Shown: piece after piece, positions 24,427 through 38,645 of the stretch | Layout of the letters: every line of letters begins with the position of its first letter | Position numbering within the stretch: the first letter of the stretch is position 1 | Source of the DNA: a virus | IMG/VR virus record: IMGVR_UViG_3300029985_000061 | Span: 1 to 46,355 of that record | DNA: 46,355 bases | Direction: 5' to 3' (one strand) | Translations under genes and position numbers: made by a program | Notes under the pieces: generated by a model | The model's database searches: none | Told to the model about the DNA's origin: nothing | What the model saw: only the letters and a program-made list of their open reading frames with translations

Positions 24427-24969
24427 ATGAAGATAACCGAATTGAAACAAACATCTAAAATTGGTCATGTTTATTTGGACTTAGATGGGGTGATTGCTAA
24501 TTGTGATCAGGGTATTGTAGATTACAATCATATAACTATGGAACAGCATAAAGCGGCTGGATGGGATAATGAATACTGGCATAATGTATTAGATAATGCT
24601 GATATTAAAGAATTTTATATTAATTTAGAATTTGAACCAAATGGACAAGCATTGTTAAATTGGTTTATTAGTCATCATATTCCTTTTACTTTTTTAACAC
24701 GACCATGCAAAGAGCCAAATACACAGGCTTGTATTGAAGGTAAGAAAATTTGGTTGAAAAGAAATGGATTGGGAGATATTCCTGTTTTATTTGAAAGAGA
24801 TAAAGAAAAATATGCTGTTTCTTCTAATGGATTACCAAATATTTTAATTGATGACCACAGCGGAAATATAAGTAAATGGAATAAAGCTGGCGGTGTTGAA
24901 ATTTTATATAAATGGGAATTGTTTCCAGATGTTATAAAGAAACTTGAAAAATTATTGCTTAATCAATAA
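24427..24969 (+). CDS. HAD-family 5'(3')-nucleotidase-like phosphatase
   Basis: 180 residues. HAD motif I is YLDLDGVIANCDQG (nucleophile D18, acid D20), motif II is FTFLTRPC, motif III Lys probably in GKKIWLKRNG, and motif IV ILIDDHSGN. The cap insert with GWDNEYWHNV fits the 5'-deoxyribonucleotidase (NT5C) branch, so it probably dephosphorylates nucleoside monophosphates in phage nucleotide metabolism. The N-terminus MKITELKQTSK begins like the capsid-targeting-like peptides downstream but lacks the LxE cleavage motif. There is no gap to the preceding gene. Confidence 0.75.
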   Translation: MKITELKQTSKIGHVYLDLDGVIANCDQGIVDYNHITMEQHKAAGWDNEYWHNVLDNADIKEFYINLEFEPNGQALLNWFISHHIPFTFLTRPCKEPNTQACIEGKKIWLKRNGLGDIPVLFERDKEKYAVSSNGLPNILIDDHSGNISKWNKAGGVEILYKWELFPDVIKKLEKLLLNQ

Positions 24970-24972
24970 ATA
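24965..24972 (+). promoter_or_regulatory. T4-type late promoter box (AATAAATA)
   Basis: AATAAATACTAAT-ATG: one mismatch to TATAAATA and exactly 5 nt to the ATG at 24978, close to the T4 late consensus TATAAATACTATT. It overlaps the end of the nucleotidase gene. Confidence 0.45.
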
Positions 24973-24977
24973 CTAAT

Positions 24978-25316
24978 ATGAAAATAAACGAAGTTATAAT
25001 TGATAAGAAAGCTATATTGTTCACAGTTAAAAATGCTGTTAAAAATAGCGGTGCCGTTTTTAATAAAACCAATTCTTTTCAAGTTTTAGGAATCAATTTT
25101 TCTGTAGATGTTTCAGACGGAGAACCAAAATTATATATTGGCGATATGTTGTCCACTTCAAATATTGAAGGTGGAGCAAAAGGACAATGTATAAATTATC
25201 TTTATAATATTTTGTTGAGCAAAGAACGTGATAAAGAAGAACCATTGGATTTAGATGCATCGGTTGCGAATAAATTTTTTAAGCATGTTGAATCTCAAAA
25301 GTGGCGAAATAGATGA
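24978..25316 (+). CDS. Hypothetical protein with MKI.E.-type N-terminus
   Basis: 112 residues, MKINEVIIDKKAILFTVKN..., probably translated from a leaderless late mRNA (late box 5 nt upstream, no Shine-Dalgarno sequence). A central GAKGQCINYLYNILL helix follows a beta segment (FQVLGINFSVDVSDGEPKLYIG). The first residues resemble the peptide shared by the downstream cassette but without a clear cleavage motif. Family unknown. Confidence 0.6.
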   Translation: MKINEVIIDKKAILFTVKNAVKNSGAVFNKTNSFQVLGINFSVDVSDGEPKLYIGDMLSTSNIEGGAKGQCINYLYNILLSKERDKEEPLDLDASVANKFFKHVESQKWRNR

Positions 25317-25317
25317 A

Positions 25318-25447
25318 GTCTATTAAATTAAGCTCTCTTTTCCTGATATAGACCGTGGTGAACATTGCCTTTAGGGAGCGGTATGTTAAAAGAAAGTCAG
25401 GTGCAGTATAGCCGAGGATTATATTATAATCTTAAAAACTGCCTCGG
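25318..25447 (+). ncRNA. Structured intergenic RNA with predicted pseudoknot
   Basis: A 148-nt gene-free gap. GTCTAT(25318)/ATAGAC(25348) closes a hairpin whose loop carries GCTCTC(25332), which pairs with GGGAGC(25374) downstream, an H-type pseudoknot. CCTGA(25342) can also pair with TCAGG(25397). A terminator-like CCGAGG(25412)/CCTCGG(25442) hairpin ends it, just before a late promoter. It could be a 3' UTR element of the preceding gene or a free RNA. No known family recognised. Confidence 0.4.
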
Positions 25448-25451
25448 TAAT

Positions 25452-25459
25452 TATAAATA
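25452..25459 (+). promoter_or_regulatory. T4-type late promoter box (TATAAATA, perfect)
   Basis: Perfect TATAAATA with exactly 5 nt to the ATG at 25465, so transcription should start at the initiation codon. Confidence 0.7.
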
Positions 25460-25464
25460 GTAGT

Positions 25465-26043
25465 ATGAAAATAACTGAATTATTGGAAGATTCCTCCGAC
25501 ACTATGACTTTTTGGCATGGTGGGAGGAATTTACAATTTAATCATATGGAAATGCTTGGAGCCAAGCATGGCCGATGGGAATATGGGCCGGGGCTTTATT
25601 TGACTAATCACTACGAAACTGCAAGAAAATATGCTAAAGGTGGTGGTTCGACATATAAAGTTACGGTAGAAAAAGGAACGGATATTAAACAGATTACCAT
25701 TGATCTTAAAGAAGTTATTGATTTTGTAAAAAGATATGTCATTGGAAAACATCGTTCTAATATTATTGATGATTTAAAAAACAATCTTAATAAACTTGGG
25801 ATATTACAATTAGAAGTTTTAGTTAACCTTTGTGTGAACTATGATGCCTTATCTCCAAAAAATACTGTTGAACTAAGAAAGTTTTTAGTTAATCATGGTG
25901 CAGATTATGAAATTGTTCGTGGATATGGTGGAAGAGATGAACATATTGCTATAATTTTTAACCCAACTAAAATTAAAAATATTGAGCCAATTAAAGCATC
26001 TGATGTTACGTTGGATCAATGGAAACTTCTTATAAACAAATAA
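25465..26043 (+). CDS. ADP-ribosyltransferase-like protein with capsid-targeting-like N-terminus
   Basis: 192 residues. MKITELLEDSSD is followed by TMTFWHGGRNL (H18, the ART His), then YGPGLYLTNHYETARKYAKGG (Y44 in the G-x-G-x-Y pattern and A/Y at the usual spacing of the PARP/ART fold), and an acidic residue near the C-terminus (GGRDEHIAII, E159). These are the H-Y-E-type positions of ADP-ribosyltransferases; the exact subfamily is uncertain. The N-terminus ends in L-L-E, a possible gp21-type protease site. T4 Alt, an ART packaged in the head and injected, is the obvious analogue. Expressed from a perfect late promoter with the start codon at +1. Confidence 0.65.
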   Translation: MKITELLEDSSDTMTFWHGGRNLQFNHMEMLGAKHGRWEYGPGLYLTNHYETARKYAKGGGSTYKVTVEKGTDIKQITIDLKEVIDFVKRYVIGKHRSNIIDDLKNNLNKLGILQLEVLVNLCVNYDALSPKNTVELRKFLVNHGADYEIVRGYGGRDEHIAIIFNPTKIKNIEPIKASDVTLDQWKLLINK

Positions 26044-26046
26044 TCT

Positions 26047-26054
26047 TATAAATA
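26047..26054 (+). promoter_or_regulatory. T4-type late promoter box (TATAAATA, perfect)
   Basis: TATAAATACTACT-ATG: a perfect box, nearly the full T4 late consensus, and exactly 5 nt to the start codon at 26060. Confidence 0.7.
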
Positions 26055-26059
26055 CTACT

Positions 26060-28576
26060 ATGAGATTGCGACATTTATTTGAGGCATTAACACTACGAAA
26101 AGAGCTTGTAATTTATTCGGGTTCTTTTAGTCCGTGGCATCTCGGTCATTCTGCGGTATATAAATATCTCAATAAAAAATTCCCTCAAGCTGATATTTTT
26201 GTTGCATCGTCTTCAAAAAAGACGGTGGATCGTTCATTTTCGTTTGATGATAAAAAATTTCTTGTCTCTCAAGCTGGAATTCCAGAAGATAAGTTTGTAG
26301 AAGTTATCGCTCCTTATAAAGCAAATGAAATCACGAAGAATTATGATCTAAATAATACTGTTTTAATTTTTGCTATCAGCAGAAAAGATAAAGATCGTTT
26401 GGCTCGTCCAAATAAGAAAAATGGAGAAGCTCCATATTTTTTGCCATATATTAATTCTGAAGAATGTGAACCATTTTCTAAACATGGATATTTTATAGTA
26501 GTTCCTACCGTTAAGTTTTCATTATTGGGAAAATCAATAAATTCCGCAGCGCAAATCCGTGAAATGTATAAGAATTCAAATGATAGAACCCGTTTGAAAA
26601 TATCTAAATCTCTGTATCCTAATTCAAATAAAATTCAAGAAATTAAAGATATTCTTGATACTATTCTTGTGTCATCAACGCTTATTGAATATTCAGGTGT
26701 TGTTTCGGATAAGGTTGATGACGATGGTTGGATTCTCCCAAATGGCGAATTTATACCCAATGGTTATCCTACTGGTTATGGTGGACATAGTTCAACGCTT
26801 TATAATTATAAAATTAAATCATATGATGAAGCCTACGATAAAGGATGGGTTCATTTTATAATTAGGGATAATAACGGGATATTAGATACCGACAATGCAG
26901 AGGTAGAAGATAACAAAAATATTGATACTTTTGTTCGTAATAGATTAAAAGATTTCCCATATGTGACATTAACTATCTGGCCAAAAAATGACAATGAACG
27001 TAAAACAAAAAAATTTGAATGGAATGGTAGATATTTTAATCAAGTTAATAATACAAAAGTTTATGAGTCATTAGATAACTATAATACTATTACCAATTTT
27101 GGTTGGTTACTCCCCAATGGAACTTTTTTAGAAGGATGGTCACACTCTAAGATTCTTAGAAGAGAAGGCTTGAAGGATTATATTGATGCCTATGAATTGG
27201 GATGGCTTCATTTTCAATTTGGTAATAATTATAGTAGAAGCGGTAGTATTATTTCATCTTATGGATTATTTGGAACAAACCAAAGTCTTCAAGTAGTCCA
27301 AAAAACAGTAAAAATCGGAGCAAATAGAATATCAAAAAATATTGATAATATCTATATTCAATGTTCGGAAGGTATATTTAGATATGATAGAGATTATTTT
27401 ACATTTAAAAAAGTTAGAAATACTGTTCTTGAATCGATAATTACAGAAAATGAGAACATTACAAAAGATGGTTGGTTTACTCCTAACGGCAAATTTGTTG
27501 AAAATCGTTTTGGTAGTGGGCATTTTGGAACATTGCGTAACGTTGGTATAGATTCTTATGATGAAGCCTTTGATTTAGGGTGGGTTCATTTTTCTGGAAC
27601 TAATAATCCACATGGTGTGTGTAACTTGCAAATAGGAGTTTCTTATTCAGACAATATAGAATTTATTAATAATATTGCTAAAAAACTTGAACATAATTTT
27701 CCAATTATTAAATTAATAGAAAAATGGTATAAAGTTTTTAATAGATATGAATGGGATGGAAAAGATTTTAGATCGGTAAATCGTAATAAGTTTAATGAAT
27801 CAGTTATAACAGAAAACATTAAACAAGATGGTTGGCTTCTTCCATCTGGTCAATTTATTCCTAATCCTTATGGGTCTGGACATTGGGACACTTTAAAGAA
27901 AAAAGGATTTAAATCTTATAGTGATGCATGGCAACGTGGCTGGATGCATATATCATTTTTTAATGATAGTTGTATTATATCAGCATATTCAGAATTGGAA
28001 GAAATGGAACCATTGTTAACAAAAATTGCAAAACAAACAGAAAAGGTTTATCCAATTATACGAGTTGATTGTGGCTCTGGACGTAATTATAAGAAATATG
28101 AATGGACAGGAAAAGAATTTGTTCCTATTAAAATAAAAATGTTTAATGAATCACCAGATTTCAATTATTCGATGTTTCATAATCGAGATAAAGAATTAAA
28201 AAATGTTAAATTTAACTGTGTTGTTACTCGTAATAGTGGTGGTGGAACTTATTTAGAAGTTATGGCAATGCTGGATTTAGAACAAATTGGTTATATACAT
28301 ATTTTATATGATAAAACAGCTTTCAATTATTCAATTGGTATGGTTAGGAGAAGTGATATTGAATATGAATGGAAGGGAACCGGTCTTGGACAAATGTTAT
28401 ATGATAAAGCAATTCATTATGCAAAAGAAAAAGGTTGTAAATATTTATGGTCAGATACAGAACGATCAGTAAATGCAGAAAATGCTTGGAAAAGATTATC
28501 GAAGAGATACCCAATAACTTTTGTAACAAGCAAATCAGGAATGAAATATTATCAAGTTGATTTGGACAAAATATAA
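26060..28576 (+). CDS. Candidate injected polyprotein: nucleotidyltransferase + four DGW repeats + GNAT
   Basis: 838 residues. MRLRHLFEA (possible cleavage L-F-E|A at 8/9) leads into a nucleotidyltransferase with GSFSPWHLGH (H27-x-G-H30) and a late INSAAQIREMY motif like the I-S-S-T-x-I-R of NMN adenylyltransferases; substrate unproven. From about 219 come four copies of DGWxLPxGxFxxN...SYxxAxxxGWxHF, each closed by a YEWxGKxF-like strand. They are separated by VYE|S (336), VLE|S (458), FNE|S (580) and FNE|S (697), spaced 122, 122 and 117 residues. The last segment is a GNAT acetyltransferase (EWKGTGLGQMLYDKAI) introduced by ESPDFNYSMFHNRD. Its stop overlaps the next start (ATAATG). The regular motifs suggest cutting by the prohead protease; this is inference. 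Confidence 0.75.
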   Translation: MRLRHLFEALTLRKELVIYSGSFSPWHLGHSAVYKYLNKKFPQADIFVASSSKKTVDRSFSFDDKKFLVSQAGIPEDKFVEVIAPYKANEITKNYDLNNTVLIFAISRKDKDRLARPNKKNGEAPYFLPYINSEECEPFSKHGYFIVVPTVKFSLLGKSINSAAQIREMYKNSNDRTRLKISKSLYPNSNKIQEIKDILDTILVSSTLIEYSGVVSDKVDDDGWILPNGEFIPNGYPTGYGGHSSTLYNYKIKSYDEAYDKGWVHFIIRDNNGILDTDNAEVEDNKNIDTFVRNRLKDFPYVTLTIWPKNDNERKTKKFEWNGRYFNQVNNTKVYESLDNYNTITNFGWLLPNGTFLEGWSHSKILRREGLKDYIDAYELGWLHFQFGNNYSRSGSIISSYGLFGTNQSLQVVQKTVKIGANRISKNIDNIYIQCSEGIFRYDRDYFTFKKVRNTVLESIITENENITKDGWFTPNGKFVENRFGSGHFGTLRNVGIDSYDEAFDLGWVHFSGTNNPHGVCNLQIGVSYSDNIEFINNIAKKLEHNFPIIKLIEKWYKVFNRYEWDGKDFRSVNRNKFNESVITENIKQDGWLLPSGQFIPNPYGSGHWDTLKKKGFKSYSDAWQRGWMHISFFNDSCIISAYSELEEMEPLLTKIAKQTEKVYPIIRVDCGSGRNYKKYEWTGKEFVPIKIKMFNESPDFNYSMFHNRDKELKNVKFNCVVTRNSGGGTYLEVMAMLDLEQIGYIHILYDKTAFNYSIGMVRRSDIEYEWKGTGLGQMLYDKAIHYAKEKGCKYLWSDTERSVNAENAWKRLSKRYPITFVTSKSGMKYYQVDLDKI
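26717..28138 (+). repeat. Four tandem DGW...GW protein repeats
   Basis: Coding repeats of about 120 residues: DGWILPNGEF (26720), FGWLLPNGTF (27098), DGWFTPNGKF (27467) and DGWLLPSGQF (27827), each with a downstream GWxHF. DNA identity is low, so the duplications are old. Confidence 0.75.
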
Positions 28577-31278
28577 TGATTATTGAAAATTTTATAAATG
28601 AATTATATAACGATAAGCCACTTAAAAATGCTCTTGTAGCATTGAAGCCAGAAATTGTGCGAAGAGTTCAACGGGAATATGATAAGTGGAGAGGTGGAAT
28701 GGGTATTTGTGATTATATTGCACGGACGATTCGTTATGTCATAGAAGAAGATATTCCAGATGCAAAAGTAAGTATTATAGATAAAGAAAGTTTTCATTAT
28801 TGGGTAAGAGTGTGGTTAGGAAAAGAATGTTACGATGTTGATATTCCATTCGGAAAATATGAAAGATATAACTATAAAAATGATAAATTTATAAAAATAC
28901 CAAATGTAGTATTTAATATTCATGATATTTTCATTTATCGAACCTCCACATCATTTTTAAAAGCACCATGGGAAATAAAAAAATCATACGTTCCACACAA
29001 AGATGATCAGTATTATCATTTAAATGATCATTTACTTGTTAAAGAATCTCCAGATTTTAATTATACAAGATTTAATAACAGAGATGAAGCTATTAAGAAA
29101 ATAAAATTTAAAGAAGTTGAGAGTAATTATCTTGGAGAATATTGTAATATTACTGCTTTTTATAAAAATGATGATGTGGGGGTTATAAATTTATTTAAAT
29201 ATAAACCAGATTCAGAAGTAATAGTTGAATCTATAGAAATTAAACCACGTTGGAAAGGGACAGGATTGGGGCAGTTGTTATATGAAAAGGGTATAGCATA
29301 CGCAAAGAAAAATGGTTTTGAAAATTTCTGTTCAGATACAAATAGGTCAGATGAAGCAAATAAAGCGTGGCAAAGATTGTCTCAACGATATCCAGTGAGA
29401 TTACTGAAAATAAAAATTAGGGGAGCGATGAAAAATCGTTATGAGATTGATCTTAGTAAAGTTCCTTTAAAAGAATCAATAATATTTGAAGAGCCGGATT
29501 TTGGATATAAAACCTTCAACAACAGAGACGAGGAATTAGAACAATTAAAATTTAGATATGAGGTTAAAGCATCATTAATAGCTATCACAATTTATAAAAA
29601 TTCTGATGATAGTATTAATCAACAATATCCATTAGGAGTTATTGAAGCTATAAAAGATTCTTTATGTATTACAATTGAAGGGGAAGATCAATCTAAAGTT
29701 AATTCGTGGTTTATTACCGTTGCTAGTATACCAAATGATTGGAGAGGAACTGGTTTAGGACAGATATTATATGAAAAAATGATTATTGCGGTTAGAAGTG
29801 TTGGTGGAAAATATTTATGGAGTGATGTTAGCTTAAATAAAAATTCAAGGTCTGCTTGGGAAAGACTTTCCAAAAGATTTACAGTATTAAAAATTAAAAA
29901 TAGATATAGAATGACTATACCAGAAAAACAAAAAAGATTGAGAATTAAAGAATCGCCAGATTATGGGTATAAAATCTTCAACAACAGAGAAGAAGAAATT
30001 TCTAAACTGAAATGGGTTGTTATTCATAATGAAGATGGAATTATTGTAAAAGCAGTTGAAGAGAATAGATATAATAGACCAAGTGGTGATAGTATATATG
30101 GAAATTATGAAGGTTTGATAGTTGCAAGACCTATTCCAAAAGATGCAACAATTGGAAAAGGAATTCAAATAACTTTAAGTAAATTACATAATACACAAAC
30201 AAAAACTTGGCAAAGCACCGGTTTGGGTCAAATGCTATATGATCGGATTATTCAAGAAGCTAAGAAAGCTGGTTATGATTTTATAACTAGTGATTTCGAT
30301 AGATCATTAGATGCCAATAAAGCATGGAAGAAAATATGTCAACGATATAATGTAACAAAAGTAAAAGCATTTGATGGTGATAAGTATTTTAGAATAGATT
30401 TGGAAGATGTTCCAAATAAAATAAATGAAGATATCGGTAATATTGTAAAAACAAAATCATTATATTATGGAAGTGCGGCGCGTCCAAAAACAAAAACAGA
30501 GTTGCTTATCAACAACAGGGTTAAAGGAGAGATTTATTTAAGTTCACCTATGGATTTTGATAACGATGATTTGGACTGGTCATTTGATGTTCCTATTGAA
30601 AAAACAGAAATGATAACCTACGTTGATATTGATCCTATCTATCGTAATAGAGGTTATGGAAAATTATTATATAATGCTGCTATGAAGAATGCAAAACAAC
30701 GCGGAATAAAAATAATTATAAGTGGTATGCCACAATCATCAGATGCATTACGGGTATGGAATAGTTTAGCTAGAGAAGGAAAAGTTAAGAAGAATCATGA
30801 TTGGGGAATGTATATCGATTTAGAGAATATTTCAGATAAAATAAATGAATCACCAGATTTTGGTTATCAACAGTTTAATAATAGGGATGTTGATTTTAAA
30901 AAAATTAAATTTGAAACTGAAATGAATGCAACTGGGTTTTTTATTTTTTCATATTTTGATGGTCGTGATGCCGGTCATATTGGATGCACTATTAGAGAAA
31001 AACTTTTTCCGCCACCAAAAACATATAAAGTCAGTCAATTAGTTATAATACAGAGTGTTGATACAGAAAAAGAATGGAGAGGAACAGGTTTAGGACAAAC
31101 TCTTTATGATATGGCAATTAAGAAAACTAAAGAACTTGGATATAAATATTTTAGAAGTGACATTTCATTATCAAATGATGCATTTAATGCTTGGAAAAAA
31201 TTATCACAAAGATATCCTGTTACAAAATATTTAACAAGTTTAGGAAAACCATATTTTGAAATTGATTTAGAGAATATT
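28148..31278 (+). repeat. Six tandem GNAT domains spanning two genes
   Basis: The C-terminus of the preceding gene and five domains of this one share ESPDF-x-Y...FNNRD, (R/K)GTGLGQ-x-LY, an SD-x-x-x-S/R helix and a W-x-[RK]-[IL]-[SC]-[QK]-R-[YF] ending. The fourth is the most divergent. The array indicates repeated in-frame duplication. Confidence 0.75.
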
Positions 31279-31281
31279 TAA
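28576..31281 (+). CDS. Candidate injected polyprotein: Cys-protease/transglutaminase-like domain + five GNATs
   Basis: 901 residues. MIIENFINELY precedes a domain with GGMGICDYI (C45), ESFHYWVRVW (H74) and CYDVDIP (D87/D89), a Cys-His-Asp layout of the transglutaminase/papain type. Five GNAT acetyltransferase domains follow; motif A reads RWKGTGLGQ, WRGTGLGQ, WQSTGLGQ, RNRGYGKLL and WRGTGLGQ. Each is introduced by ESPDF-x-Y-x-x-FNNRD or a variant. Hydrophobic-x-E sites stand at the boundaries: VKE|S (157), LKE|S (300), IKE|S (459), INE|D (618) and INE|S (758), spaced 143, 159, 159, 140 and then 143 to the end. GNATs transfer acetyl or other acyl groups to small molecules, proteins or tRNA; substrates here are unknown. 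Separate mature enzymes released by the prohead protease is my inference. Confidence 0.75.
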   Translation: MIIENFINELYNDKPLKNALVALKPEIVRRVQREYDKWRGGMGICDYIARTIRYVIEEDIPDAKVSIIDKESFHYWVRVWLGKECYDVDIPFGKYERYNYKNDKFIKIPNVVFNIHDIFIYRTSTSFLKAPWEIKKSYVPHKDDQYYHLNDHLLVKESPDFNYTRFNNRDEAIKKIKFKEVESNYLGEYCNITAFYKNDDVGVINLFKYKPDSEVIVESIEIKPRWKGTGLGQLLYEKGIAYAKKNGFENFCSDTNRSDEANKAWQRLSQRYPVRLLKIKIRGAMKNRYEIDLSKVPLKESIIFEEPDFGYKTFNNRDEELEQLKFRYEVKASLIAITIYKNSDDSINQQYPLGVIEAIKDSLCITIEGEDQSKVNSWFITVASIPNDWRGTGLGQILYEKMIIAVRSVGGKYLWSDVSLNKNSRSAWERLSKRFTVLKIKNRYRMTIPEKQKRLRIKESPDYGYKIFNNREEEISKLKWVVIHNEDGIIVKAVEENRYNRPSGDSIYGNYEGLIVARPIPKDATIGKGIQITLSKLHNTQTKTWQSTGLGQMLYDRIIQEAKKAGYDFITSDFDRSLDANKAWKKICQRYNVTKVKAFDGDKYFRIDLEDVPNKINEDIGNIVKTKSLYYGSAARPKTKTELLINNRVKGEIYLSSPMDFDNDDLDWSFDVPIEKTEMITYVDIDPIYRNRGYGKLLYNAAMKNAKQRGIKIIISGMPQSSDALRVWNSLAREGKVKKNHDWGMYIDLENISDKINESPDFGYQQFNNRDVDFKKIKFETEMNATGFFIFSYFDGRDAGHIGCTIREKLFPPPKTYKVSQLVIIQSVDTEKEWRGTGLGQTLYDMAIKKTKELGYKYFRSDISLSNDAFNAWKKLSQRYPVTKYLTSLGKPYFEIDLENI

Positions 31282-31292
31282 AGAGGTATAAT

Positions 31293-31726
31293 ATGCAAAA
31301 TTTAGAAATGATAATGAAAATAGCATCTGCAACGCTTTTTAGTTTTTATCTTAAAAGTCATATGATACATTTTAATATTATTGGACCAAATTTTTTCAAT
31401 ATCATAAACTCACGGATGAAATCTGGAAAGATACTATTGAAGAATTTGATGGAATTTCTGAACAGATTAGAGCATTGGATATTATTGCTCCCGCATCATT
31501 ATCAGAATTTCAAGAATTATCTCAAATTGAAGATATGATAAAACCGATAGAGGCAAAAGCAATGCTTTATGAACTTCTTCTTGATAATGAAAAATTAATA
31601 GAGCTTCTTAAAGAAGCAAACTCATTATCTGTTCCACACCCCGGACTTGGTAATTTTTTACAATCTTTGATTGATAAACATGAAAAAATAGGATGGTTCC
31701 TTCGTGTAACAGTAAAAGGAATTTAA
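31293..31726 (+). CDS. Dps/ferritin-like protein, split by a -1 frameshift
   Basis: Frame 1 from ATG 31293 encodes LFSFYLKSHMIHFNIIGPNFF, the Dps start with the conserved His pair, and would then leave the family. The -1 frame from 31397 continues at once with QYHKLTDEIWKDTIEEFDGISEQIRALD (D-x-x-x-E ferroxidase residues), then APASLSEFQELS and a C-terminal helix ending at 31726. Joined, the product is about 145 residues, normal for Dps. The junction is a T6 run holding two slippery heptamers. Dps proteins store iron and protect DNA. Options are programmed frameshifting, a recent inactivating 1-base loss in the T run, or a sequencing error. An AGAGG site precedes the start. It sits inside the candidate injected-protein cassette. 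Confidence 0.75.
31388..31397 (+). other. Slippery sequence at the Dps frame junction
   Basis: A-AAT-TTT (31388-31394) and T-TTT-TTC (31391-31397), both of the X-XXY-YYZ form and both in phase with the upstream frame. A -1 slip re-reads the C at 31397 and gives the conserved Dps sequence GPNFFQYHKL. No strong downstream stem is obvious. Confidence 0.55.
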
Positions 31727-31728
31727 AA

Positions 31729-32466
31729 ATGAAAATTAAAGAGCTTCTCCAAGAATCAACCATACCACAGAATGTAATTACTATTCTTCGAGAATTGATG
31801 CCTGTTTTGAAACCGGGATTATCAACACCATTAATTAAAATAGTAAATCATATAAATCCAAAATATTTAGGTATGGATAGTTGGGGTTATAGAATTAAAG
31901 GTGGAGTTGAATCCTGTGATACATTTACTACCATATATCTTCAAAAATATATTCTTACAGATGAAAAAACATTAAAGAGGGTTTTAGCGCATGAGCTTTG
32001 CCATCATGAAATTTCACTTACAATAGATACTGAACGATTTAATATATTGGGATTTAAAAGATATATGTCTTATTGTAAATCCCATAGAAATGAAAGTCAT
32101 GGAAAAGATTGGAAGGAAGTTGCAAATAGATTTAATGCAATATATGGAAAAGATTTTGTAACTAAAAACTCAGATATAGATTATATTTTAGATACTTCTC
32201 TTATGAAACCTTTTTATGTTGTATTACAAGATTATAAAGGAAGAAAATGGTTTGCAAGCACTGTTAGGTTTGGAGATAAACAGAAACAATATTTATCAAG
32301 ACAATATTCTCCTTGGAAAATGTTTAAAACTAATGATCGATCTTTTATGACAAAATATTTTGGTGTTGGGTGGTGTAAAGCCCCACAAACTCATATAGAA
32401 GATAAATGGGATGATCTTTGGAAGAGCGGCGAAGTCATATTATCTGGAAATTTGGATAAAGAATAA
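31729..32466 (+). CDS. SprT-like zinc metalloprotease with capsid-targeting-like N-terminus
   Basis: 245 residues from ATG 31729, behind an AAAAGGAA site; a GTG 36 nt earlier in frame would overlap the Dps gene. The N-terminus MKIKELLQESTIP ends in L-Q-E|S. The catalytic motif is RVLAHELCHHEIS (H88-E89-x-x-H92), followed by ESHGKDWKEVANRFN, the second H-G-x-x-W/F element of the SprT family with the third zinc ligand. SprT/Spartan proteases cut DNA-protein crosslinks; here it could degrade host proteins after injection. The C-terminal 100 residues resemble no zinc ribbon known to me (VVLQDYKGRKWFASTVRF). Confidence 0.7.
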   Translation: MKIKELLQESTIPQNVITILRELMPVLKPGLSTPLIKIVNHINPKYLGMDSWGYRIKGGVESCDTFTTIYLQKYILTDEKTLKRVLAHELCHHEISLTIDTERFNILGFKRYMSYCKSHRNESHGKDWKEVANRFNAIYGKDFVTKNSDIDYILDTSLMKPFYVVLQDYKGRKWFASTVRFGDKQKQYLSRQYSPWKMFKTNDRSFMTKYFGVGWCKAPQTHIEDKWDDLWKSGEVILSGNLDKE

Positions 32467-32469
32467 ATA
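32462..32469 (+). promoter_or_regulatory. T4-type late promoter box (AATAAATA)
   Basis: AATAAATA with a predicted start near 32475, a 10-nt leader and an AGGTGAG ribosome site before ATG 32485. Confidence 0.4.
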
Positions 32470-32484
32470 TAGTATAGGTGAGTT

Positions 32485-32985
32485 ATGAAAATTTCTGAAC
32501 TTTTAAAAGAGACTGCCTCTTGTGGTTCAACAAGTGCAGGTTCAATTGCGACTGTTAATGCAACAGGAACTCCACCCAAAGGTCAATTCTTTGGAGGAGA
32601 CCCATCTAGTTCAATTTATGGAGTTATACATAAAAATAGAAAAAACAGAAAGAAACCAATTAAAGAAGGTTTAACTAAAAATTCGCGTGGGACATATCTT
32701 TTTATATATAATCCTGATGTTGGTTTGTTTATTCGTAAAGGAGAATTTTCTAATCATGGTAGATTATTTGGAAAAGTATTTGATAGAGTATATCCAAAAA
32801 TACAATTTGATGAATTTGATCGCGGTTATATAGTAGTTTCTATCGATGATAAGAGTTTACTAATAATGCCAACAAGTGCTCGTGAATATTTTGATTATGA
32901 CATAGAAAAAATATTTGAAAATAAATATTCTAAGAAATATAAAATAAAAATGTCGAATCGTTTTAGAAGTTATTATTTAAATTAG
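32485..32985 (+). CDS. Capsid-targeting-like protein, paralogue of the next gene
   Basis: 166 residues. MKISELLKETASCGSTSAGS (possible cut L-K-E|T) is followed by a Gly/Ser-rich stretch with IATVNATG and FFGGDPSSSIYG, a segment type I recall from other large-phage proteins. A second site KKPIKE|G stands before the folded domain TYLFIYNPDVGLFIRKGEFSN...FDRGYIVVSIDD...MPTSAREYFDYDI. That domain is shared with the following gene, which reads FLWIYHRDTGLVVRRGRYA...FDRGYIKLDP...MPTDPREYFVYDV. Function unknown; the layout (leader, linker, site, domain) fits a packaged internal protein. Confidence 0.65.
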   Translation: MKISELLKETASCGSTSAGSIATVNATGTPPKGQFFGGDPSSSIYGVIHKNRKNRKKPIKEGLTKNSRGTYLFIYNPDVGLFIRKGEFSNHGRLFGKVFDRVYPKIQFDEFDRGYIVVSIDDKSLLIMPTSAREYFDYDIEKIFENKYSKKYKIKMSNRFRSYYLN

Positions 32986-32992
32986 AGGTAAT

Positions 32993-33658
32993 ATGAAGAT
33001 AAAAGATATAATTCGTGAAAGTGTCGATATTGGGAAGGGTGTCCCTCCAGAAGAATCAAAAAAATTCACAACATTTTTGTGGATATATCATCGAGATACT
33101 GGATTAGTTGTTCGTAGAGGACGATATGCAATGCATTCCACTATATTTTACGATATGATTCGTGATTGGCGTATGCGTTTTGATGATTTTGATCGAGGTT
33201 ATATAAAACTTGATCCAAAAACTAAAACAATGTATGTAATGCCCACCGATCCACGAGAATATTTTGTGTATGATGTTAAAAAAGTATTTGAAAAAGAATT
33301 TCCAAAATGGCATATCGAATTATTTGAAAAATGTAAATATGCCTTTAATCCCGGAAACAGATTACGCGATTCTGTTAAAGAAGCAATAAAAGAAACAATA
33401 TACCTAATTCAATATAAACTTCGTTTCTACACACCAGAAGATATACCGGATATTAAAATACAAGTATTAAATAGATTTAAGGAAACGATTGAAAGGGAAA
33501 GTTATCGAAAGAATATGATAGTTAATACAGAAATTAAAGATGAGATAGTATACGTAAAATCATCTTATGAAGGTTATAAAATAGAATTACCAAAAGTATT
33601 ATCTAATAAAAATACAATTAAAGATTTTAAAGTAACATCGGTGGCAAATGAAAAATAA
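32993..33658 (+). CDS. Capsid-targeting-like protein, paralogue of the preceding gene
   Basis: 221 residues, starting 8 nt after the previous stop with an AGAGG site. MKIKDIIRESVDIG has a possible I-R-E|S cut. The domain FLWIYHRDTGLVVRRGRYA...DDFDRGYIKLDPKT...MPTDPREYFVYDVKK matches the preceding gene but lacks its Gly/Ser linker, and it has an extra basic C-terminal part (residues about 125-221). It overlaps the next start by 11 nt. Function unknown. Confidence 0.65.
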   Translation: MKIKDIIRESVDIGKGVPPEESKKFTTFLWIYHRDTGLVVRRGRYAMHSTIFYDMIRDWRMRFDDFDRGYIKLDPKTKTMYVMPTDPREYFVYDVKKVFEKEFPKWHIELFEKCKYAFNPGNRLRDSVKEAIKETIYLIQYKLRFYTPEDIPDIKIQVLNRFKETIERESYRKNMIVNTEIKDEIVYVKSSYEGYKIELPKVLSNKNTIKDFKVTSVANEK

Positions 33659-34844
33659 AACAATAATTGGATCGACCAAACCGTTTCGTGAACCGGGTGT
33701 CTTAAAGGCAACTGACAAAGTTAAATCAGTTGGAAAGGTTCTTGGTGGTAATCCAAAAAAAGGAACATTGAGTAAGAAATTTTTTGGTTGTTCAGTTATT
33801 AAAGATATGAGTAATAAAAAAATATTGGATGAAGAAATTAATTCGTTTTCTAAATTACATGAGCTAAATGATCATGAAGGTGCAGCTTTAATATTACAGA
33901 ATAAAGAAGTTTTTATTGGAATATGGCATGCAGAATTAAGAAAAGAAGCAAGTATACAATATGGTTATAAAATGGCATCTCTTTCAAACGGCGCAATTAG
34001 AGTTAGATATACTGGTAGTGTTGAAGGGTATGGTGATGGAACAGTTATAGAATTTGAAAAGAAAGATATTAAAGTAATTTCAAATATTATAGAAGTTATA
34101 GATAATATTAATTCTCCGGCTGATATGTTTTTATTGGAATATACCGGGCCATTGGGTTATTGGTCTGCTAAAGGAAATTCATCAGAAGTAATAGAAAAAT
34201 TAGAAAAATGGGGAAATCCAGATAAACCATCTATGTCTACTAGTGTATCATATTGGCATAATTCTAATTTAGATGAATCAAAAGATAAAATTTTAGAATA
34301 TAATTACAATAATGATACACCAACACCAATGATTGGTGGTTTAGAACTTTTAAAACAAATTAATATACGAAATAGTGCAGCATTAATATCGGCGGATAAC
34401 AATGTTTATTTGGGAGATGAACATTATTTACTACGAAGATATTTTAGAAGCGTTGGTATTAATCCCGAACTTCAAACTGGTGTAGTTAGAATTAGATTCG
34501 AAGGAACCGAAGGATTTTATAATACAACTATTGAATTTGCTAAAAAAGATACAGAAACAATTCAGCGCGTGTTTACAGCATTGGATTATGTTGCTGCACC
34601 AAATGGAACATATGTAGTTGAATATACTATGTCAAATGTAAGAAAGGATTTTAGGGGAACATCTGAAGAAATAAAAAAAGAAATAGAAAAATGGTTAAAT
34701 CCAGTAGCGCCATCTTATAGTAGTAATATGAATTATTGGAGAACACAGGAATCTAAAAAATCTCTCGGTAGATTATTGGATGAAGCAAAACAAAAAAGAG
34801 AATTAACAAAAAGATTGCAGGAAGAATTTGGTAAATTTGTATGA
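33648..34844 (+). CDS. Two-repeat protein with internal LDE cleavage-like sites
   Basis: 398 residues, ATG overlapping the previous gene. A basic leader (MKNKTIIGSTKPFREPG...KATDKVKSVGKVLGGNPKK) is followed by KKILDE|E (62), a domain of about 145 residues, NLDE|S (210) and a second copy of the domain. Shared elements are AALI...NNVYLGD/NKEVFIGIW, V-R-[IV]-R-[YF]-x-G-[ST]-x-E-G-[YF], IEF-x-KKD and a late LE[YK]W-x-NP/PD-K-PS. It ends in a charged coiled segment (SLGRLLDEAKQKRELTKRLQEE). Same logic as the polyproteins: repeated domains separated by hydrophobic-x-E sites. Family unknown. Confidence 0.65.
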   Translation: MKNKTIIGSTKPFREPGVLKATDKVKSVGKVLGGNPKKGTLSKKFFGCSVIKDMSNKKILDEEINSFSKLHELNDHEGAALILQNKEVFIGIWHAELRKEASIQYGYKMASLSNGAIRVRYTGSVEGYGDGTVIEFEKKDIKVISNIIEVIDNINSPADMFLLEYTGPLGYWSAKGNSSEVIEKLEKWGNPDKPSMSTSVSYWHNSNLDESKDKILEYNYNNDTPTPMIGGLELLKQINIRNSAALISADNNVYLGDEHYLLRRYFRSVGINPELQTGVVRIRFEGTEGFYNTTIEFAKKDTETIQRVFTALDYVAAPNGTYVVEYTMSNVRKDFRGTSEEIKKEIEKWLNPVAPSYSSNMNYWRTQESKKSLGRLLDEAKQKRELTKRLQEEFGKFV

Positions 34845-35326
34845 GATTAATTGAAATGTTTTCTGATTCAGATGAGATGGCTAAAAAATATCCTGTAACT
34901 TTAAATAATTATGATACTAAACAAATTATTAGTGATTTGAAAACGTTGTCCATAGAAAAATTTACATGGATAACCTCACCGTTAAAATACTCAGATTATA
35001 TGAATTGGGGTAATATTCCATCTGAAACTAAAATGGATACATTGATAAAACATAATGAATTTGAATTTAAAAATATAAATCCGCATACATTAATAACTTA
35101 TCAGAAAGAAGTGTCAATTGAAACTATTTTATTAGCTATGAAAAATATAAATATGGGACAAGATAATAAAAGATCATATGAAAGATTTCCAATAATTAAA
35201 CAGTGGAATGGGAAAAATTATTTAATAGACGGAAATCATCGAGCCGTAGCAGCACTGTGGTCAAATAGATTACTACCTTGTAGATGTTTAAATATAGAAA
35301 TATTTTTTGATGTGGAGCCATTTTAA
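34841..35326 (+). CDS. ParB/sulfiredoxin-like domain protein
   Basis: 161 residues, ATGA overlap with the previous gene. MRLIEMFSDSDEM resembles the shared N-terminal peptide, with no clean LxE site. The C-terminal part FPIIKQWNGKNYLIDGNHRAVAALWSNRLLPCRCL is the ParB/Srx core, in which DGNHR-x-A-A is the nucleotide-binding or catalytic loop. Members act as nucleases, CTPases, DNA-binding proteins or small kinases; which applies is unknown. The upstream half is helical and unrecognised. Confidence 0.65.
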   Translation: MRLIEMFSDSDEMAKKYPVTLNNYDTKQIISDLKTLSIEKFTWITSPLKYSDYMNWGNIPSETKMDTLIKHNEFEFKNINPHTLITYQKEVSIETILLAMKNINMGQDNKRSYERFPIIKQWNGKNYLIDGNHRAVAALWSNRLLPCRCLNIEIFFDVEPF

Positions 35327-35327
35327 T

Positions 35328-36170
35328 ATGAGGCTGAACGAGTTGGCAAGAAAAAAGAAAATTGTTACTCCATATGATCCTGTTGAAGCCGCGCGTGAAA
35401 GCCTTGAATGGTATAAAGAAGATGGTATTAAAAGATGTCCAAATAATACATTACAACTTTTTGTTCCTCGAAAAATAGAACGATATGCAACAAAGAAAGA
35501 ACGCGAAGAACATATTTTACGAGATAGAGCCAAATATGCATATGACGATAATGGTGATATGATTCCTCAATATAGAGATTGGGTCAATAATGTCCACGAA
35601 TCTATAATAGATGAAGGTGCTCCGGTGCTTGCTGGTGGAAATCCATTAATTGGTGGAAGCAAACCTTTAAGTGCGTTATTATGGACAAGCACAGCTAAAA
35701 AATTAGATAATGGTAAGTGGACAAGTGACTGGAATAATTTTATCCAAGGTGGAAATCTCGGTAGTTCCAAACCATCAAAAATTGGATACTTATATAAAGT
35801 TCTGCCAAATACATTAGTATATGAATTAGATAGTGCTCAAGATGCATTAATTATATATAAAATTTTTAAAGATTTGGGAAGACCTAATAAAGCATTAGAT
35901 GATCCAAATAATTGGGAACGAACAAGTGAATTTTATAGGAATAGTAATGATACAGATATAAGTATTATACAAAAAGATTTTCCGTGGCCAGATTTGTCAG
36001 CTAATTTCGATTGTATACATCATTGGGGTGGTAGAAATAGTTTTAATTATGATTCTTTTACTGGTGGATACGATGTGGAAAGTTCGTGTTTTTTCAAACC
36101 AAATCAACTTGAATTGCTTGGACAAGTTCCACTATGGACGCCCGAAGATGATAAAGAAGATGATTTTTAA
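35328..36170 (+). CDS. Cassette protein of unknown function (possible toxin-like fold)
   Basis: 280 residues from ATG 35328, with GGAG 10 nt upstream; an earlier in-frame ATG at 35310 lacks a site. MRLNELARKKK opens like the cassette peptides. A middle segment ESIIDEGAPVLAGGNPLIGG has I-D-E|G, a possible processing site before the folded domain ALLWTSTAKKLDNGKWTSDW...GYLYKVLPNTLVYELDS...DFDC-like W/H-rich stretch and a C-terminal SSCFFKPNQLELLG. The S/T-W-rich start and late ligand-like residues recall ADP-ribosyltransferase folds, but no signature is decisive. It meets the - strand gene tail to tail, overlapping by 4 nt. Confidence 0.6.
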   Translation: MRLNELARKKKIVTPYDPVEAARESLEWYKEDGIKRCPNNTLQLFVPRKIERYATKKEREEHILRDRAKYAYDDNGDMIPQYRDWVNNVHESIIDEGAPVLAGGNPLIGGSKPLSALLWTSTAKKLDNGKWTSDWNNFIQGGNLGSSKPSKIGYLYKVLPNTLVYELDSAQDALIIYKIFKDLGRPNKALDDPNNWERTSEFYRNSNDTDISIIQKDFPWPDLSANFDCIHHWGGRNSFNYDSFTGGYDVESSCFFKPNQLELLGQVPLWTPEDDKEDDF

Positions 36171-38570: not shown

Positions 38571-38645
38571 GCGGGGTTAGCTCAATGGTCGAGCGCCAGA
38601 AACCAATTCTGGAGGTTGCTATTTCGATATTAGCACCCCGCTCCA
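38571..38645 (+). tRNA. tRNA, anticodon apparently CCA (Trp), with encoded CCA end
   Basis: Acceptor GCGGGGT/ACCCCGC, T8-A9, D-stem GCTC/GAGC with GG in the loop, anticodon stem CCAGA/TCTGG, T-loop TTCGATA, discriminator T and genome-encoded CCA. By position the anticodon 38603-38605 is CCA (Trp). Oddities: position 33 is A, not the near-universal T, and base pair 53-61 is a T-T mismatch. Bacterial tRNA-Trp normally has a G discriminator, so identity is uncertain and the molecule may be decaying or specialised. Confidence 0.7.

Follow-up and report, generated by a model that had tools for sequence, protein, structure and literature searches.

Two adjacent genes on the + strand of the virus record IMGVR_UViG_3300029985_000061 (positions 26060-31278) raise the question of whether a phage can make several small proteins as one chain and leave their separation to the protease that matures its head. 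The record (46 kb; 46,355 nucleotides) was analysed over its whole length and is called the window here. A first, sequence-only reading had proposed that both products are polyproteins matured by the prohead protease into about ten effectors, and our results support this proposal, with the number revised to about 12. We consider it probable that both chains are capsid-targeted effector polyproteins and that the head-maturation protease, of the S77 family, cuts them in trans into about 12 proteins of 14-23 kDa (masses computed for cutting at every site). The support comes from an S77 protease gene in the same phage and from the same motif in its capsid propeptide, in a scaffold-like protein and in the protease itself, as well as from modules that keep the site when shuffled among relatives, from the position of the sites in linkers predicted to be unfolded, and from a second phage lineage in which the junction ahead of the same GNAT module has K/R-x-A, like the capsid propeptide and scaffold-like protein of that lineage.

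Modules and junction sites of the two chains

Each chain carries six modules behind one short leader. According to Pfam, hidden Markov models (HMMs) and alignment, the product of gene 1 comprises a cytidylyltransferase-like domain, four DGW repeats and a GNAT domain, and that of gene 2 a Cys/His domain followed by five GNATs. The features are listed below (↓, predicted cut; residue of the site in brackets; pLDDT, predicted local distance difference test of the AlphaFold models).

26060-26083, + strand: leader of polyprotein 1, MRLRHLFE↓, predicted capsid-targeting propeptide (pLDDT<50)
26084-26689, + strand: polyprotein 1 module 1, cytidylyltransferase-like, residues 9-210, 23.1 kDa, ends LIE↓Y (Pfam PF01467, 1.3e-4, above cut-off; Foldseek match 1k4k at rank 46)
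26690-27067, + strand: polyprotein 1 module 2, DGW repeat 1, ends VYE↓S (336) (DGW HMM)
27068-27433, + strand: polyprotein 1 module 3, DGW repeat 2, ends VLE↓S (458) (DGW HMM)
27434-27799, + strand: polyprotein 1 module 4, DGW repeat 3, ends FNE↓S (580) (DGW HMM)
27800-28150, + strand: polyprotein 1 module 5, DGW repeat 4, ends FNE↓S (697) (DGW HMM)
28151-28573, + strand: polyprotein 1 module 6, GNAT acetyltransferase, residues 698-838 (Pfam PF00583, HMM, motif GTGLGQ)
28576-28602, + strand: leader of polyprotein 2, MIIENFINE↓ (pLDDT<50)
28603-29046, + strand: polyprotein 2 module 1, Cys/His domain, ends VKE↓S (157) (Cys and His invariant in an alignment of three homologues; no Pfam match)
29047-29475, + strand: polyprotein 2 GNAT 1, ends LKE↓S (300) (Pfam, HMM)
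29476-29952, + strand: polyprotein 2 GNAT 2, ends IKE↓S (459) (HMM)
29953-30429, + strand: polyprotein 2 GNAT 3, ends INE↓D (618) (HMM)
30430-30849, + strand: polyprotein 2 GNAT 4, divergent, ends INE↓S (758) (Pfam, HMM)
30850-31278, + strand: polyprotein 2 GNAT 5 (Pfam, HMM)

The GNAT units share only 35-42% identity with the first of them. No convincing family was found in Pfam or PHROGs for the DGW repeats or the Cys/His domain; the latter has a weak PDB profile match (3f44, E 0.0022) that does not settle its function, and Foldseek searches with the whole models, in which the listed matches were mostly GNATs, did not settle the function of either.

All nine sites that had been read from the sequence lie at exactly the residues claimed, and their occurrence at every domain boundary extends to a tenth junction that had been overlooked, LIE↓Y at residue 210 of gene 1. 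Other parts of that reading need correction. The even spacing of 117-122 residues in gene 1 is the period of the DGW repeat as defined by its HMM, and is therefore no evidence for processing. The sites of gene 2 had all been placed between GNAT domains, which does not hold for the one at 157, coming after a non-GNAT domain. Ser after the Glu stands as a preference but was rejected as a defining feature: A, D, G and E occur at this P1' position in relatives (S, A, G, D, E or T when leaders are included), and orthologous head-protein sites swap S, A and G.

Linkers rich in Glu, Ser, Lys and Asn might carry so short a motif without any function, and composition alone would indeed place hydrophobic-x-E in 3.6 of the nine linkers. 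The two proteins contain [VILMFYW]-x-E 42 times (20 + 22), with Ser next in nine cases, and eight of these nine fall inside the nine inter-module linkers, which make up 130 of 1,739 residues (7% of the length). Hydrophobic-x-E-S is thus present in 8/9 linkers against a mean of 0.30 expected, a count of eight being reached in 0/100,000 within-linker shuffles, and any hydrophobic-x-E in 9/9 against 3.57 (P 7e-5, the same shuffles); in these tests the repeat copies are not independent, the tenth junction (LIE↓Y 210) is excluded, and the linker edges were set by us, from HMM matches where possible, the ends of the DGW repeats being trimmed and GNAT 4 given a manually chosen start. Whole-protein shuffles gave a milder excess (hydrophobic-x-E-S 9 vs 2.7, P 0.0016). 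Since, in addition, the same module start has a different motif in another lineage, ordinary linker composition is a highly improbable explanation of the sites.

In the AlphaFold models (mean pLDDT 64.5 and 72.6, built on 12 and 14 aligned sequences), the nine sites, LIE↓Y 210 and the sites that end the leaders all fall where pLDDT is below 50, in segments predicted to be unfolded; the check suggested in the sequence-only reading, burial of the sites in folded domains, therefore did not refute it. VLES 458 is modelled as a short helix within such a low-confidence segment, and the sole hydrophobic-x-E-S outside the junctions, IVES 218 of gene 2, lies inside a GNAT strand. In gene 2, 9 of 61 Glu are in segments with pLDDT<50 and all nine belong to hydrophobic-x-E; gene 1 has 13 Glu in such segments, six of them in this motif.

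The head protease and relatives with the same junction motif

The head genes are supplied by a sister contig, IMGVR_UViG_3300028854_000012 (G001, 90 kb), which matches the window with 99.98% identity along two 23-kb stretches that overlap and align end to end, and which was the only viral contig found with single whole proteins as queries, other relatives requiring module alignments. It encodes an S77 prohead protease (PF03420, E 1.7e-24, 82.1 bits; also phrog_207, head maturation protease) and a T4-type major head protein (phrog_138), with portal-like and tail genes, identified by eye, near these head genes; the gene that we call scaffold-like is so named for its position ahead of the capsid gene and matches PHROG 10922, which has no function assigned.

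The gp21 protease of T4 cleaves after L/I-x-E according to the accessible text of a published account (PMC9026906), and a motif of this kind recurs in the head proteins of the phage studied here. Its capsid protein has KQLRE↓SATTG near the N-terminus, with a predicted cut LRE↓S, and KQLRE is followed by S or A in all three related S77 phages (G001, G004 and G010). Places conserved in all three, in the scaffold-like protein, the protease and the capsid protein, read V/I/L/F/W-x-E and then S, A, G, D or N, among them LLES, VNEA/INES/VSEA, FSED/FAED, IAEA, IFEA/IYEA, LSEA/LAES, LHES/LKEA, VNES and VYEG/VYES/VYEA; most P3 residues are L, I, V or F, and the freedom at both P3 and P1' is that seen at the polyprotein junctions. 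When 54 open reading frames (ORFs) were ranked by their excess of hydrophobic-x-E[SAGD], with the junctions unused, the scaffold-like protein and the S77 protease took ranks 1 and 2 and the polyproteins ranks 5 and 7, with modest z values of 2.3 and 1.9.

Conservation of the sites in homologues was examined with GNAT units that begin with PDFxY. An E-type site directly precedes 11/11 of them in four phages, whatever module stands upstream; this total consists of nine units and two of L062, near-identical loci were merged (L013/L014/L016, L015/L017, L019/L020, L040/L042), and 11/37 matches beginning after model position 12, including GNAT 4 of polyprotein 2, were omitted. S77 was found in 3/4 of these phages and not in the contigs of the fourth (G002, G003), which may be fragments.

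The modules themselves are shuffled. In phage G004 (L015) the Cys/His module follows a leader ending LISE↓S, and three GNATs come after MRE↓S, LKE↓S and VAE↓S. The Cys/His module of L013 lies inside the chain, after LKE↓S, and at further junctions the sequence is INE↓D, INE↓S, FYE↓S, INE↓E, ISE↓S and INE↓A, so that this module stands behind a leader end in two phages and within the chain in another. A 360-kb contig (L022) has ITE↓S ahead of a GNAT, and a 1,564-residue chain of G004, whose module borders were set partly by eye, has ITE↓A, LQE↓D, IFE↓G, ITE↓D, VTE↓A, INE↓G, MYE↓S and IFE↓S between modules. A relative's chain combines DUF6267, SprT-like (under cut-off) and DGW modules. For the cytidylyltransferase module, an E-type site lies 8-12 residues ahead of the core motif in 29/38 distinct contexts, the nine without it being mostly leaderless; the 38 remained after five loci without the anchor motif and one empty context had been dropped, and the S77 status of these phages was not part of the count. 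Two of the three copies deep within chains, after VTE↓D (L067) and LNE↓S (L101), have the same spacing as leader-bearing ones.

Such shuffling between leader-bearing single genes and chains is also what would be seen if the sites were vestiges, that is, if genes with leaders had been fused or duplicated, their leader ends carried along, and the chains now worked uncut; repeats of one family would likewise copy the site together with the unit. Against this, the site is retained in 11/11 GNAT units despite an identity of just 35-42% to the first unit; P2 and P1' change whereas P3 and P1 are conserved, a pattern shared with the conserved places of the scaffold-like protein; and junctions between unlike modules have the site too. 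We therefore regard a vestigial origin without present cutting as unlikely, and processing by the S77 protease as the better account.

In a more distant phage (L104:7971-13889), a chain of 1,973 residues has ESVNE four times (1324, 1418, 1494 and 1566), by eye at module borders, suggesting a wider pattern.

A second head-protease lineage

The same GNAT and SprT modules also occur in polyvalent proteins of Tunturiibacter phage Tunturi_5 and of soil and other contigs (the K lineage). The head-maturation protease of Tunturi_5 matches phrog_18299 and no Pfam family, its capsid protein is also different, and S77 was not found in Tunturi_5 and the five K-lineage contigs searched. Protease and capsid protein of this type co-occur in eight further contigs (in the capsid protein search 10/20 records matched, Tunturi_5 itself included, with 10 strong of 13 places examined; in the protease search 10/21 matched, itself and one weak match included). 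The capsid N-termini of this lineage, corresponding to the propeptide, have LLK[TS]A in 10/10 sequences examined. Among 122 Tunturi_5 ORFs (from 189 of 309 kb) ranked for K-x-A, the first two are gp332, annotated as hypothetical and scaffold-like in our interpretation, and the DNA-ejection protein gp328.

The junctions differ accordingly in kind. In the K lineage, 9/9 PDFxY GNAT units come after K-x-A (8) or R-x-A (1), versus 11/11 that come after the E-type site in the S77 group (Fisher 6e-6). Just upstream of the K-lineage SprT modules, [KR]-x-A occurs in 13/19 (background 0.11, P 5e-9) and an E-type site in 5/19 (background 0.38), and ART modules give partial support, with [KR]-x-A in 9/21; 59/93 module matches were kept for these upstream counts, the rest being duplicates or starting after model position 12. 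Among five polyvalent proteins of Tunturi_5, a K-x-A excess is present in gp225 (z 2.6) and gp272 (z 2.2) only. The contrast between the lineages is strong in kind and limited in number. Because the junction differs with the protease, homology of the domains is no explanation for it, and a vestige would not be expected to track the protease.

The same contrast bears on the possibility that a peptidase embedded in the chains, either the Cys/His domain of polyprotein 2 or an SprT-like metallopeptidase, is the cutter. Polyvalent proteins often carry peptidases, as the available part of the survey by Iyer et al. (2017, PMC5512222) indicates, and relatives do have SprT modules besides the Cys/His domain found here. 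However, no peptidase family was detected in polyprotein 1 or 2, the Cys/His domain included, at the thresholds used, and the junction motif is that of the capsid and scaffold-like proteins and differs where the head protease differs, which makes an embedded cutter very improbable and points again to the head protease acting in trans.

Several observations weigh against processing by the head protease, or against its extension to both lineages. The motif is short, and 27/42 hydrophobic-x-E lie outside the unfolded segments of the AlphaFold models; ranks 4 and 6 of the 54 ORFs, and several of ranks 3-7 of the 122 Tunturi_5 ORFs, are non-head ORFs; and V and F at P3 would have to be accepted from the predicted head-protein sites, the T4 motif being L/I-x-E. 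An internal cytidylyltransferase in L108 has, by eye, no E-type site. In the K lineage, no [KR]-x-A lies within 22 residues ahead of 6/19 SprT and 12/21 ART modules, and 10/21 ART modules have an E-type motif (background 0.29, P 0.055). K-x-A leaders were rejected as a lineage-wide rule, LL..[KR]-x-A occurring within the first 40 residues in 8/23 module-bearing proteins; gp273 (z 1.3), gp321 (0.3) and gp205 (-0.4) show no K-x-A excess; and gp225 has an E-type excess too (z 2.7). The contrast is essentially one between two clades, so the P-values overstate independence. Lastly, the N4 virion RNA polymerase, which is grouped with the polyvalent proteins, is packaged unprocessed according to the part of the same survey available (PMC5512222).

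With these points considered, we lean, with less confidence than for the two chains themselves, towards a general reading in which effector chains packaged in the head, many polyvalent proteins included, are genuine polyproteins that the capsid-maturation protease cuts in trans, every protease lineage having its own junction code (hydrophobic-x-E↓ in S77 phages, K-x-A↓ in those of the Tunturi_5 type). If this is true, tailed phages use the polyprotein strategy of RNA viruses, with the capsid protease as processing enzyme and many injected effectors per targeting signal, and would gain a new effector simply by adding its module to a chain that already has a targeting leader. With such a code, effectors packaged in the head and the specificity of the protease could be predicted from the sequence, with no other data, including in uncultivated phages, and a route is suggested from giant polyvalent proteins to small proteins able to pass the tail tube.

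Some further features of this lineage deserve mention. Some ART modules begin with VTETP, TLETP or ITETQ, which resemble the E-type motif and may be a relic, a domain feature or chance. Near the C-terminus of Tunturi_5 gp225, gp203 and gp321 (L027, L028 and L029) lies an LLQ-type stretch (SRLLQP, SRLLQP and SYLLQRP, respectively), similar to the N-terminal LL leaders and perhaps a targeting or processing tag, and gp224 (L027:1336-3402), annotated as portal, has a GNAT module with GTGLGQ and resembles a polyvalent protein. Virion proteomics of Tunturi_5 was sought, and the terms 'mass spectrometry' and 'SDS-PAGE' are absent from the main text of PMC11924767.

Neighbouring genes, proposed mechanism and known systems

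The two genes belong to a cluster (24427-36170) whose other members are listed here.

24427-24969, + strand: 5'-3' deoxyribonucleotidase-like protein, weak leader MKITE (phrog_2643, 1.5e-18)
24978-25316, + strand: protein with weak leader MKINE (leader scan)
25465-26043, + strand: ART-like protein after leader MKITELLE↓D (PF18760, 0.0011, under cut-off)
31729-32466, + strand: SprT-like domain protein after leader MKIKELLQE↓S (PF10263, 8.8e-7)
32485-32985, + strand: protein with a module after MKISELLKE↓T and an internal IKE↓G (61) (sequence)
32993-33658, + strand: homologue of the 32485 module, after leader MKIKDIIRE↓S (blastp 1.5e-21)
33648-34844, + strand: third likely polyprotein, two homologous halves split by LDE↓S (210) (self-blastp 4e-22, residues 70-204 vs 235-365)
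34841-35326, + strand: protein with weak leader (hydrophobic-x-E at 5), ParB-like by eye (VapB-like Pfam match under cut-off)
35328-36170, + strand: protein with weak leader, internal VHE↓S (91) and IDE↓G (96) (sequence)

That the same motif ends the leader peptides holds for both polyproteins (LFE↓A at residue 8 and INE↓L at residue 9) and in part for the cluster. A hydrophobic-x-E ending at residue 5-16 is present in 12/12 of its ORFs, versus 6/30 elsewhere in the window, with cluster borders that were chosen after inspecting the genes, and in 11/11 (Fisher 4e-6) without the probable gene fragment 31475-31726; the leaders MKITELLE, MRLRHLFE, MIIENFINE, MKIKELLQE, MKISELLKE and MKIKDIIRE are clear, but those of the ORFs starting at 24427, 24978, 31475, 33648, 34841 and 35328 are weak. 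Even with borders so chosen, these protease-motif leaders speak against uncut chains that stay unpackaged and work as tandem acetyltransferases inside the infected cell; phage GNATs could act after de novo expression, yet we hold such a role to be most improbable and prefer packaged chains that are cut in the head.

Modules of the cluster also move between positions. The SprT-like module of 31729-32466 is internal in relatives' chains, and the module common to the 32485 and 32993 proteins is preceded by IKE↓G in the first and by the leader end IRE↓S in the second. The 33648 protein contains 12 hydrophobic-x-E in total.

In the 32485-32985 protein, the leader is followed by CGSTSAGSIATVN, close to the predicted mature capsid start SATTGSTSAGNIATLN and possibly a second targeting element. 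A Dps/ferritin-like gene is apparently split across two frames (31293-31538 and 31475-31726; second part PF00210, E 0.0075, under cut-off), and the end-to-end alignment with the sister contig suggests the same state there. A tRNA-Trp (CCA) gene lies at 38571-38645 of the window.

A mechanism can be proposed from these elements. The short N-terminal leader would bring each chain into the prohead core, in the manner of the T4 capsid-targeting sequence. During head maturation the S77 protease would cut after hydrophobic-x-Glu in the scaffold, the capsid protein and the leaders, and also in the exposed linker of every module pair, releasing 12 folded proteins: the cytidylyltransferase-like enzyme, four DGW modules, six GNATs and the Cys/His domain. 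In or near the size range of the T4 internal proteins, these would be retained in the head and enter the next cell together with the injected DNA, so that one leader would carry six putative effectors in equal numbers.

The sequence-only reading knew of no described equivalent, and no report of a phage effector polyprotein cut by a head protease was found in the open-access literature searched, part of which was available as partial text; the closest systems there are the polyvalent proteins and the T4 internal proteins. The S80-type prohead proteases of phiKZ and SPN3US also cut after x-x-E, with ejection proteins as substrates and several propeptide cuts. However, all cuts identified in SPN3US, save the protease's own, remove N-terminal propeptides, and the accessible portions of the SPN3US and phiKZ literature do not describe any single chain that yields several mature proteins. 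Phage P1 packages anti-restriction Dar proteins in its head, DarA being cut by the protease Pro and the 250-kDa DarB having an N-terminal packaging signal, but the accounts, as far as accessible, describe a single propeptide cut in DarA and mention no cutting of DarB.

Iyer et al. (2017, PMC5512222, accessible sections) describe polyvalent proteins with 2-15 domains per chain, liken them to RNA-virus polyproteins and regard their packaging and injection as likely. They share with the present chains several unlike conflict-related domains, including GNAT, ART and ParB-like modules and metallopeptidases. Release of their domains, however, was ascribed, though not in every case, to embedded peptidases, including C-terminal assemblin-like ones, whereas here a separate head-maturation protease and a site at each junction are proposed; no mention of a junction motif was found in the available part of that article.

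The T4 internal proteins and Alt have a short N-terminal leader cut after L/I-x-E by gp21, an S77 protease; the internal proteins are small, kept in the head and in many cases injected, and Alt is cut at both ends (ITE-6 and LTE-619), as reported in the accessible text of two sources (PMC9026906, PMC5694885). In T4 there is one effector per leader and no effector chain, whereas six modules follow each leader here. By analogy, each step of the proposed mechanism has a precedent: leaders of about 10 residues that target proteins to the head, small internal proteins that are retained and then injected, and Alt with a cut at either end. The new element would be the repeated internal cut that frees several mature effectors from one chain.

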